A stretch of 61,373 nucleotides of DNA. It comes from SAR324 cluster bacterium. GTDB taxonomy: Bacteria > SAR324 > NAC60-12. The DNA is taken from contig JADFZZ010000031.1 of the NCBI GenBank assembly GCA_015232315.1, positions 1 through 61,373 of the forward strand, given 5' to 3'. Of the stretch, positions 36,047 through 40,687 are shown piece by piece (position 1 is the first letter of the stretch; the number at the start of each line of letters is the position of its first letter). Made by a program: the position numbers and the translations under genes. The notes beneath the pieces are model-generated. The model saw only the letters and a program-made list of their open reading frames with translations. It had not been told where the DNA came from and made no database searches.

Positions 36047-36988
36047 TCATTCTGAAGCAACACTATCGTGCGTCTCTACGAGTTGGAGTATCCAGCGATT
36101 GCGAAGTTCAGGAGGATTATCGCAACTGATGGGACTCTCAAATGTTTTTCGTATCAGGCTCAAGGTCAACGATTTGACAGGATTCGTAGTTGGCGAAGTG
36201 AGTTCGATGTCGCAAATCAGATTTTCGTTTTCCATTCTGGTCTGACGCAACACAGGACGTGCATCAAAACCCTGTTCATAACAAAATTGCCGGGCATAGG
36301 CGTCAGCAATCTGAGAAATGTCATTCAACCACGCATTGCCCCGATAGGCCGGACCATACACACGGTTTTGCAACAACATAGTGACCCATGTGGAAACATT
36401 TTCCCCGGTCAACCAGCCATAAACGTCTGCCTGGGGAAACACCATGGCTGTAGCGGCAAAGCGGTGCCCGCCAAGGTGAGAGCTTTCCCAGACATCAATG
36501 TCCGGGTGGGCAATTTCGTTTCGAAGTGACTGATAAATTTTCTGTCCATACCTGGCACAGCATTTATCATGCCGACCATGGGTGCATACGAAAATTTGAA
36601 GATTGTCCACCGGAGCCGGGGGAAACTCCTTCAGCGGGGTGCCTCCGACATGGTTTTCCAGGACCTCCATCAAACTGTCGCGTGGAACATTCCGATATTG
36701 TCTGGAATCTGGAAAAATCATCACGGTGTGTTGTTCCGGTGATGTCCGGGATTGGCTGATGAGACGCAATTGAACTTTTCCCTGGAGCCGTTTTTCCTGT
36801 GCCTCAAGCCATGGTGCCAGTTTTTCAGGAATAGCAGGCGTGTCCAGCGCGTCATACCCCCATTGCGCTTTGGGCCATGATATAAAAACAAACATTTTTG
36901 CGTGAGGCGCTGTACCCGCAAGGGGTTCTTTGAGTGCTAACGCTTTATCAGTACAGAATACATCATGAGAAAATGAAGTCGTTTCCAT
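36047..36988 (-). CDS. Sucrase/ferredoxin-like family protein (2Fe-2S thioredoxin fold)
   Basis: The 313-residue protein belongs to the Suc/Fer-like family, related to yeast Apd1 with a 2Fe-2S thioredoxin-like domain. The ligand region CTHGRHDKCCARYG and the later SSHLGGHRFAA with its two histidines fit the Cys/His-ligated cluster of that family. A second half (about 200-313) has no clear match. Its reaction is unknown; Apd1-type proteins are linked to redox stress. The final codons are read from a fragment of the GTAGAGACG palindrome (36065-36079), so the natural C-terminus may have been altered. It is 228 bp from fliN on the non-shared side, with no operon partner. Confidence 0.8.
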   Translation of the reverse strand: METTSFSHDVFCTDKALALKEPLAGTAPHAKMFVFISWPKAQWGYDALDTPAIPEKLAPWLEAQEKRLQGKVQLRLISQSRTSPEQHTVMIFPDSRQYRNVPRDSLMEVLENHVGGTPLKEFPPAPVDNLQIFVCTHGRHDKCCARYGQKIYQSLRNEIAHPDIDVWESSHLGGHRFAATAMVFPQADVYGWLTGENVSTWVTMLLQNRVYGPAYRGNAWLNDISQIADAYARQFCYEQGFDARPVLRQTRMENENLICDIELTSPTTNPVKSLTLSLIRKTFESPISCDNPPELRNRWILQLVETHDSVASE

Positions 36989-37040: not shown

Positions 37041-37880
37041 TCAGGCAACTTCCAGTTCCAGATCACTTTGTTGCTGGATATTCCATTTTTCAACACTGAG
37101 TTCAAAATCATCATGGATGGTGCAGTGGATCGGCCCCATGCTTTCAAGTTGAACGACACGGATGATTTTCATTTTGGCCATCTCGAGCATCGCCATGAAG
37201 GTAAGAATGATGAACGATTTTGAGAGATCTCCGGTAAACATGTCTTCAAACAGAATTTGAGGAGAAAGCCAGAATTTATCAATCAGTTCATTGATCCGGT
37301 CTTCAATCCGGTATTTTTCCATTTCCACGATATGTGTTGTGATTTTGGGGCGGCGTTCCATCACCCGCTGAAAGGCTTCCATGAGGGCGTAAATGGAAAC
37401 TTCTTCAAACACGGGATCTTTTTCCTCAATATCAGCCAGCAGAATTTCCTCCTGCTCAGGCCGGCCAAACACATCCCGTCCCAGGATATCCCGGACAGAC
37501 AATTTATAGGCCGCGTCCTTGTATTTCTGATATTCAATCAGTCGGAGTCTCAGTAATTCTTCAGGGTCGTCCTCATCCGGCACAACTTCTTCGGTTTTAG
37601 GTTTGGGCAGGAGTCTGCGGGATTTGATGAGAATGAGCGTGGCGGCAATATCGAGAAACTCACCCGCGATATCCAGATTGATGGATTGCATGATGTTCAG
37701 ATAAGACAAATAAGATGCCGTCAAATCGGACAGACGGACTTCGTAGATATCCAGTTCTTTTTTACGAATCAGGTGCAGAAGTAAATCCAGCGGACCTTCA
37801 AACACTTGCAACTTGATTTCAAGGGGGTTATCCGGGTTAGGAAAAATGGCAAATTCTTCAGGAATCGCTACGGGATTCAT
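37041..37880 (-). CDS. scpA: Segregation and condensation protein A
   Basis: The 279-residue kleisin binds SMC head domains and ScpB to build the chromosome-condensing complex. The conserved N-terminal motif FEGPLDLLLHLI and the LDIAGEFLDIAATLILIKSRRLLP segment are diagnostic. The C-terminal winged-helix part is present. It overlaps the gspD stop by 4 bp, so translation is coupled to the secretin gene. No scpB or smc gene is in the window. The unrelated neighbour argues for a conserved chromosomal operon rather than a functional link. Confidence 0.93.
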   Translation of the reverse strand: MNPVAIPEEFAIFPNPDNPLEIKLQVFEGPLDLLLHLIRKKELDIYEVRLSDLTASYLSYLNIMQSINLDIAGEFLDIAATLILIKSRRLLPKPKTEEVVPDEDDPEELLRLRLIEYQKYKDAAYKLSVRDILGRDVFGRPEQEEILLADIEEKDPVFEEVSIYALMEAFQRVMERRPKITTHIVEMEKYRIEDRINELIDKFWLSPQILFEDMFTGDLSKSFIILTFMAMLEMAKMKIIRVVQLESMGPIHCTIHDDFELSVEKWNIQQQSDLELEVA

Positions 37881-40687
37881 CGGCTTTCTTTTCTCACACG
37901 CTGGGGCGGAATGATTTCTTCAATCACTTCCTTGTGCAGTTGTTTGGTTTCGTTGGCTTTGTGATAACGTTTTTCAACAGTGGTGGTGACTTCCAGCAGG
38001 TCTTCCTGATTATGAATAATGTAAGGTCGAATGAACAGGAGCAAATTGGTTTTTTCCACTTCATCCTCACTGTTCCGGAACAACCAGCCAATCAACGGCA
38101 AATCGCCAAAGCCCGGAATTTTGGTGCCTGTCTTGCTCACTTTTTCATTGATCAAGCCACCAAGAGCCACAATCTCACGGTTACCGGTCAACACTGAGGT
38201 TTCCAACTCACGTTTGAGTGTGACAACACCAGCCTGATCGACTTCAACCGGACGGGCGACAATATTGCTGGATGTTTCCTTAATTTGCAAGAGGATGCTG
38301 TCATCGCCACTGATTTGTGGCTGGATCGTTAACATAACTCCAACATCACGGTATTCAATCTGTGTTGTACGGTTGCCGCTTGCGTCCACCACCGAGTTGG
38401 TTCCCACTGGAACCACCGTGGCCACATTGATGGTCGCTTCTTCATTATTCAGCATGAGGAGTTGAGGGTTTGCCAGAACATTGATTTCCGAATCACGTTG
38501 TGTGGCATTGATGAATGCGCTGAAGGTAAAAAACTGCTCTCCCCCCATTTTGATACTGCCGCCAACCGTTCCCAGGGTAAAATTTCCAGTGTTGGAAATG
38601 GCTTCTGTTGCTGTCAGCGGTTTGCCATCAGGAAAGCCACCGACAGAAGCACCACCCGTCCGGGGTGCCGCCGCATTCCAGTCTACGCCCAGTTCCAGGC
38701 TTTTGCTGAGTGAAACCTCCACAATCATGGCTTCCACATAGACCTGCAATCTGCGAGAGTCCAGTTTTTCCACAACACGGTCCATGGTTGAAAAGATCTC
38801 GGCAGGACCAAAAACCAGCAAGGAATTGGTTGCTTTGTCAAAACTGATGGACACCTCACTTTTTTTCTGTGAGCCGGATGCCGGTGCCGCGTCTTTATTT
38901 CCACCGGCGACATCTGTAATTCCTCCAGTGAGTTCTTTCAACAGTTTGGAGACGTCTTCCGCAATGGCGTATTTGAGCGTATAAACCTTGAAATTGCCGC
39001 TACCTTCGCCCACGGGCACATCCAGTTTTTCCAGCAGGTCAGTCGCTCGTTTTGTACTTTGAGGGTCGGCAATGATCAGCAGGGCATTGAGCCGTTTTTC
39101 CGGAATGATTTTAATGTTGCTGACCGCGTTTGCATTACTGCCGCCCTGGTCGGGGCTGGCAGGTTTATTCATGGTGGATTCTTCCTGAAATACGTTTTTC
39201 AGCATCGCGGCGGCATCCTGTGCAGACGCATATTCCAGACGATGAAATGTTGTCTGAAAACTTCCGGAACTTTCAGAAATATCCAGCTCCTCCAGCAAGG
39301 CCAGAATCCGTTGAACCGAGAAACTGTCAGCGACCAGCAGTAAGGCATTCAACCGGGGTTCCGCGATAATCGTGACACGACTGTCGGGTGAGGCCTCGCC
39401 TTTTCCTTTTCCAGCAACCACCCTGTCTGAAAACACACGAGACAGCAAGGAGGCCATCGTGTTGGCTGAAGCGTATTTCAAGGGATGCAACTTGACCTGA
39501 ACATCTCCGCGAGACACATCCAGTTTATCAATCAGATTGTCAATTTCCTTGGTAGTCAGAGGATCCGCGATAATGATCAGCGCGTTCAGATTATCAAACG
39601 GGATCACCTTGGTGGGAATGGCAATCGGTGGGTTGCCCGCATTGGCATCACCAGCCGGTACAGGTTTGGCCAGTTGAGACTGATTGCTATAAATCTGGGT
39701 CACGATGGATCCAACCTGGCTGGCAGAAGCAAATTTGAGTTCCTTGACGGTCAGGGTCGCGCCAATTCCCTGCGCTCTGACATCCACTTCCTCAATAAAC
39801 TGGATGATCTCCTCAGTCACATTTTTGTTGGCCAGAATGATGATGGCGTTGAGTTGTTCTTCCATCATGAGTTTGATCTTTTCACGTCTTCCATTGTTGA
39901 CCATATTGGAAAACAGACTGGAAACCGTGTTGAACACATCTTTGACCTGCCGGTTCTTCATGTTGTAAATTGTGACAAGTTGTTTGCTCACTTCCGGTTC
40001 ACGAACATCCAGATATTTGATGATGTCCGTAACACGTTCCACATTGATCTGGGTGTCAATGATCAACAGCATGTCCAGGGGTTCATAGGTGATGATGATT
40101 CCGGATTTCGAAAAAATCGGCGCAAGTGCCGCTTTCAATTGCTGAAGATCCGCAAACTGAATCTGTACCAGCCGCATCATAAAGGTATTCTGTGGATCAT
40201 CAATGCGGACATTGCCCGTGATGAGCGGTAGTTTGGAATATTTGGCATTTTTTTCTTCCAGAATTTCAACTACATTGCTGTTTTCGCGACGCACCATGGT
40301 CAATCCCTGGGCAGCAAGGAGTTGTTCAAAAATAAAAAAAGCGTCCGCAGCGGTCACTTTGATATTCGGTGGCGATGTGATGGACATTTTGCCCTTCAAA
40401 TCATTCTGCTTGTAAACAAAAACTGTTTCTGTCTCGGTGGCGATTATTTTTATAAACTGTTCCAGATCGACTGTCGGTGGCAGGTTGATCAGAACCTTTT
40501 CCTTGTCTTTTGTTTTTGGAGGGGCTGTTTTTTTGGGGGGAGGAGGAACCGGCTTGGGTGCTTCTGCTACAGGTGTTGCTGCCGGTGTTTCCTGAGCTTG
40601 AACCATAGAAATACCGCCAAGGACAATGCTCACGAGCAGTAATAAAAAACTGTGTTTCAGGAATGATTTCATAAAATAATTTTCCAT
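37877..40687 (-). CDS. gspD: Type II secretion secretin GspD with six N-domain repeats
   Basis: The 936-residue protein forms the outer-membrane gate of type II secretion. After a signal peptide (about 6-31) and a Pro/Lys-rich linker come N0 (about 65-145) and six Secretin_N-type repeats (162-229, 236-304, 311-392, 397-471, 476-557, 565-645). Each has the pattern (L/I)NALLIIAD...LDV. The secretin core follows (648-895: VPVG, GGLINEKVSKTGTKIPGFGDLPLIGWLF). GspD usually carries three such repeats (N1-N3). ATG 40687 and ATG 40672 are both possible starts. The gene lies between ispD and scpA with 10-bp and 4-bp junctions. Other gsp genes are not here. Confidence 0.95.
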   Translation of the reverse strand: MENYFMKSFLKHSFLLLLVSIVLGGISMVQAQETPAATPVAEAPKPVPPPPKKTAPPKTKDKEKVLINLPPTVDLEQFIKIIATETETVFVYKQNDLKGKMSITSPPNIKVTAADAFFIFEQLLAAQGLTMVRRENSNVVEILEEKNAKYSKLPLITGNVRIDDPQNTFMMRLVQIQFADLQQLKAALAPIFSKSGIIITYEPLDMLLIIDTQINVERVTDIIKYLDVREPEVSKQLVTIYNMKNRQVKDVFNTVSSLFSNMVNNGRREKIKLMMEEQLNAIIILANKNVTEEIIQFIEEVDVRAQGIGATLTVKELKFASASQVGSIVTQIYSNQSQLAKPVPAGDANAGNPPIAIPTKVIPFDNLNALIIIADPLTTKEIDNLIDKLDVSRGDVQVKLHPLKYASANTMASLLSRVFSDRVVAGKGKGEASPDSRVTIIAEPRLNALLLVADSFSVQRILALLEELDISESSGSFQTTFHRLEYASAQDAAAMLKNVFQEESTMNKPASPDQGGSNANAVSNIKIIPEKRLNALLIIADPQSTKRATDLLEKLDVPVGEGSGNFKVYTLKYAIAEDVSKLLKELTGGITDVAGGNKDAAPASGSQKKSEVSISFDKATNSLLVFGPAEIFSTMDRVVEKLDSRRLQVYVEAMIVEVSLSKSLELGVDWNAAAPRTGGASVGGFPDGKPLTATEAISNTGNFTLGTVGGSIKMGGEQFFTFSAFINATQRDSEINVLANPQLLMLNNEEATINVATVVPVGTNSVVDASGNRTTQIEYRDVGVMLTIQPQISGDDSILLQIKETSSNIVARPVEVDQAGVVTLKRELETSVLTGNREIVALGGLINEKVSKTGTKIPGFGDLPLIGWLFRNSEDEVEKTNLLLFIRPYIIHNQEDLLEVTTTVEKRYHKANETKQLHKEVIEEIIPPQRVRKESR

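Follow-up and report, generated by a model that had tools for sequence, protein, structure and literature searches.

The window analysed here, a stretch of 61,373 nucleotides that makes up contig C31 (JADFZZ010000031.1) of the 5.25 Mb genome G000, comes from a marine organism in the SAR324 cluster (Lambdaproteobacteria) and contains a gspD gene on the reverse strand (37877-40687). According to the open reading frame and its Pfam and NCBIfam matches, gspD encodes a type II secretion secretin of 936 residues, and all parts of the protein described below are encoded on this strand. The protein begins with a probable signal peptide (aa 1-32, 40592-40687), which was recognised by reading the sequence rather than by a predictor and in which no lipobox was seen. 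The N0 domain, the expected docking site of the GspC HR domain, follows (aa 66-157, 40217-40492; 32.8 bits to PF21305 when scanned alone). Next come six N1-type repeats, R1 to R6, each of which matches Secretin_N (PF03958) when scanned alone. R1 (aa 170-230, 39998-40180, 40.0 bits) was classed as N1, and R6 (aa 565-645, 38753-38995, 52.1 bits) as N3. The four repeats between them are N2-like, namely R2 (aa 235-305, 39773-39985, 31.6 bits), R3 (aa 310-392, 39512-39760, 34.4 bits), R4 (aa 396-471, 39275-39502, 47.7 bits), which carries the family-conserved loop VVAGKGKGEASP, and R5 (aa 477-558, 39014-39259, 50.4 bits). The secretin barrel core closes the domain order (aa 728-891, 38015-38506; 144.7 bits to PF00263, and 148.5 bits in the whole-genome search), which reads signal-like N-terminus, N0, N1, four N2-like domains, N3, and barrel.

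A Pfam hmmscan of the full-length protein found PF03958 in six stretches with 205 bits in total, the barrel with the score given above, and PF21305 with 28.0 bits, the cut-offs being 28.2 bits (gathering score) for Secretin_N and 27 bits for the GspD N0 domain. The segments scanned singly reached 31.6 to 52.1 bits with E-values of 1.9e-7 to 7.8e-14, and thus all exceed the gathering score of Secretin_N. The original prediction for this locus had noticed six Secretin_N repeats in front of the secretin core and had proposed such a scan, naming fewer than five scoring repeats as evidence to the contrary. All six pass, and six units are also found in the structure model described below, so that this observation is confirmed. 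Each repeat had further been described as ending in a LNALLI-type strand and an LDV-type helix; this ending is strong in R3 to R5 and looser in R1, R2, and R6. The raw identity between the repeats is 13-43%, which mostly falls within what shuffled controls give (25 +/- 8%), and their homology therefore rests on the profile scores and the fold.

The protein passes the GspD equivalog model TIGR02517 of NCBIfam with 497.4 bits (cut-off 351.35). Its scores for the other NCBIfam secretin models, PilQ (TIGR02515, 194.4 bits, cut-off 284.35), SctC, and MshL, are all below the respective cut-offs. The solved structures nearest by sequence are also GspDs, and the protein has the layout expected of a secretin of the type II secretion system (T2SS), in which N0 precedes the N1-type domains and these precede the secretin barrel. 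Judged by these matches the protein is the outer-membrane secretin GspD of a T2SS. No formal criterion for GspD fixes the number of N1-type domains, but the usual three (N1-N3) are exceeded by the six in the SAR324 protein, as the prediction of a type II GspD with three additional N-domains had it. To our knowledge, no structure of a T2SS secretin has more than three N1-type rings on top of N0. In the open-access literature, title, abstract, and term matches did not turn up any GspD described as exceeding three such domains.

An AlphaFold2 model of the monomer, for which the input alignment consisted of 21 sequences of the family, contains six successive beta-alpha-beta-beta-alpha units with pLDDT values of about 60-82 outside the loops. 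Its top Foldseek matches are PulD, GspD, ExeD, and EpsD.

The number of N-domains was counted in other genomes with a repeat HMM that was iterated from the six copies of the SAR324 GspD. Every one of the 26 family genomes with an intact N-region, which represent eight genera, has exactly six. Within the same order, the sister family has three domains in seven genomes, eight in G032, and at least five in G031, whose gene lies on two contigs. Of the genomes in the next family of the class, nine have three domains and G049 has seven, and G044, of a fourth SAR324 family, has four including a weak one. The roughly 62 nearest GspDs from named genomes outside SAR324 belong to Desulfobacterota, Nitrospirota, and Gamma- and Betaproteobacteria. 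Three is the count in almost every complete one of them; four have two, all or most of these being from Nitrospirota/Nitrospirae, and the sole count of four is probably due to one split N3. About 30 sampled families of other phyla have two or three. In the phylum of G055 three or four N-domains are usual, while six are found in G193, G179, and G206 and eight in G227. Some counts of four or five in that phylum had been inflated by an N3 split by a long loop, and such halves were merged before counting. Both proteins of that phylum scanned with TIGR02517 (L197 and L195) are GspDs by their scores of 583-616 bits, and a test for the NCBIfam family Amuc_1098 was negative there. The long forms include those of G032 (up to 1171 aa, eight N1-type domains; L034:847-4359, reverse strand), G049 (up to 1007 aa, seven; L035:979-3999), and G227, whose open frame on contig C530 spans up to 1297 residues with eight N1-type domains (L195:318-4208). 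Long GspD forms are rare but recurrent. The original prediction would have lost its point if homologues had shown six repeats to be the norm of a large clade; this applies in part, since six is the norm of one family, but not of the phylum or the nearest phyla. An assembly artefact was rejected as the source of the additional repeats because the count is the same in 26 genomes of eight genera and the repeats are very dissimilar among themselves.

The origin of the additional domains was traced with class profiles built from N1, N2, and N3 of eleven three-domain GspDs. In all seven tested genomes of the family the repeats were classed as N1, four times N2, and N3. The same profiles give N1, five N2, and N3 for G049, N1 and three or more N2 for G031, and N1, N2, and six N3 for G032, in which N3 (R3-R8) and not N2 has thus been amplified. 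In the phylum of G055, L197 reads N1, four N2, and N3, and L195 N1, six N2, and N3. Within the SAR324 family, the repeats are 41-57% identical to those at the same position in other genera, but mostly less, and at most 46%, to those at other positions, R4 and R5 being the least distinct pair. This position-wise matching across genera indicates that the duplication predates the family. In G032, G049, and G031, in contrast, the copies group within their own protein, which points to independent events, and the expansion of N2 in G049, where the inner copies are 39-68% identical to one another, looks younger. From these sequence relationships, at least four separate amplifications have taken place in the SAR324 phylum. 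Inner rings were amplified in every case, while the N0 and N1 end and an N3 beside the barrel were kept.

The gene lies outside any gsp operon. The gene order in the family is ispD, gspD, and scpA, and in the window scpA is followed by one further gene and fliN. The gspD stop and the scpA start overlap by four bases (37877-37880). The arrangement of ispD, gspD, and scpA, which places a secretin gene beside a chromosome-segregation gene, is also present in the SAR324 family genomes at loci L088 and L093. The gene between scpA and fliN (36047-36988) encodes a 313-residue protein with no NCBIfam match, and a gene of equal length follows scpA in L088.

Partner genes were searched for in the same genome, covering GspC, E, F, G, K, and M. 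A cluster on contig C25 contains gspM, a gene at the gspN position that Pfam does not match, a YceG/MltG gene, gspF, gspG, and two more prepilin-like genes, of which GspM, GspF, and GspG were identified by Pfam. With profiles built from relatives, GspC was found on contig C10 (125.8 bits) and GspK on C14 (144 bits), and GspE is encoded on C75 with 622 bits, just under the cut-off of 630. A loss of GspC and GspK, with the extended secretin replacing them, had been considered and was rejected, because the missing matches were false negatives of Pfam; the PF03934 matches lay in open frames of about 750 residues that do not resemble GspK. Given homologues of GspC, F, G, M, and K in the genome, the protein is a T2SS secretin with partners and not an orphan channel. 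The YceG/MltG gene, which encodes a lytic transglycosylase (L235:6969-8003), precedes gspF not only here but also in G005, G002, and the sister-family genome G033 (L236, L243, and L237). Its product might open the peptidoglycan for the secretin or the pseudopilus.

In known GspD structures each N-domain forms a ring, N0 binds the HR domain of GspC near the inner membrane, and N3 abuts the barrel. The SAR324 protein is probably a T2SS GspD with a lengthened periplasmic ring stack, in which the added copies lie between the N0/N1 end and N3. About 15 subunits would assemble, and since every added domain would contribute one more ring, there would be seven periplasmic rings instead of four. By our estimate of about 25-30 Å per ring, the tube would be longer by about three ring heights, or 75-90 Å. 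Near the inner membrane N0 would still dock on GspC, and the exit for folded substrates would still be the same gated barrel. The added rings would serve as spacer and vestibule and extend the reach from the inner-membrane platform to the outer membrane, as has been proposed for the PilQ secretin of Thermus. Duplications of N2 that preceded the diversification of the family would have given rise to them, and they would have been retained since. Some points weigh against this reading. The gene sits between ispD and scpA instead of in a gsp operon, and confidence in the model is modest (mean pLDDT 60.8, pTM 0.40), which leaves room for a side-by-side or folded-back packing of some N2-like domains. 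Because only a monomer was modelled, we infer the seven coaxial rings and do not read them from the model.

GspC anchors N0 to the inner membrane, and its linker between the transmembrane segment and the HR domain was delimited by a simple hydropathy window and a motif. The mean linker length is 40 residues in the six-domain genomes, 33 in the three-domain genomes, and 30-31 in G049 and G032. The linker does not grow in step with the number of rings, and any extra reach would therefore have to be supplied by the secretin. As an evolutionary ruler, the count of inner GspD rings might let lineages repeatedly retune the reach of the T2SS between the membranes by duplication of one inner ring while both functional ends stay unchanged, and the fixed seven-ring machine of this family would be matched to its envelope. 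We offer this tentatively, and think it somewhat doubtful.

It is rather unlikely that the lengthening is an adaptation to a wider periplasm, with the membranes further apart and every envelope-spanning machine longer. The GspC linker is indeed about six residues longer in the six-domain family, but it shows no such increase in the genomes with seven and eight domains. In addition, no extension is seen in the genome's two other secretins, with no Secretin_N domain in the MshL-like protein (576 aa) and one in an orphan secretin of 693 residues, which argues mildly against a generally wider periplasm. The gene of the orphan secretin is located on contig C49 (L241:9105-11186). Length might also be neutral if recombination makes the N-domain arrays grow and shrink and every number between two and eight is functional. 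The range of counts, with two in some Nitrospirota, three in most GspDs, and four, six, seven, and eight elsewhere, would fit, as would the fact that the amplified copy, N2 or N3, differs by lineage. However, the constancy of six throughout the family together with the position-specific orthology suggests retention and not drift, and conservation of R4 equals that of N0 and the barrel, so that we regard neutral length as unlikely. A role of the added N2-like rings in gating or substrate binding through loops in the lumen is improbable. In its favour, the family conserves the loop between the first helix and the second strand of R4 (VVAGKGEG) well, and most genera have a comparable loop in R5, while the R3 loop varies; moreover, Thermus PilQ builds an extra gate (Gate 2) from N0 and N1 loops (PMC5745081). 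Against it, the monomer model, with loop pLDDT below 50, does not give the direction of the loops.

Whatever its use, the SAR324 GspD is a real and lineage-fixed lengthening of a standard T2SS secretin. The six-domain family beside relatives with three, seven, and eight domains provides natural variants of one machine, with which to ask what sets the length of a secretin, be it the periplasm, the peptidoglycan, or the substrate.

Compared to the GspDs PulD, EpsD, ExeD, and XcpQ, the SAR324 protein has the same N0, N1, N2, N3, and barrel in the same order, but three added N2-like domains between N1 and N3 and a gene outside the gsp operon. The GspDs of G049, G032, and G031 belong to the same phylum and have undergone the same kind of inner amplification in independent events, in G032 via N3. 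Those of G179, G193, G206, and G227 with their six to eight N-domains also consist of N1, N2-like copies, and N3, as far as the two classed ones show, but represent a separate lineage in a phylum whose sampled GspDs mostly have three or four. The closest known case is PilQ of Thermus thermophilus, whose stack is likewise lengthened by extra beta-alpha-beta-beta-alpha domains. There, N0 and five domains form six stacked rings, N0-N5, in a complex of 350 Å (PMC5745081) reaching across the greater part of a wide periplasm (PMC5745081, PMC4463427). PilQ is a pilus and DNA-uptake secretin and not part of a T2SS, and the SAR324 GspD exceeds it with N0 and six domains. Because the extra N-domains are extra rings in the solved Thermus PilQ, the analogy strongly suggests a longer tube, and the longer periplasmic channel of the original prediction would be its natural consequence.
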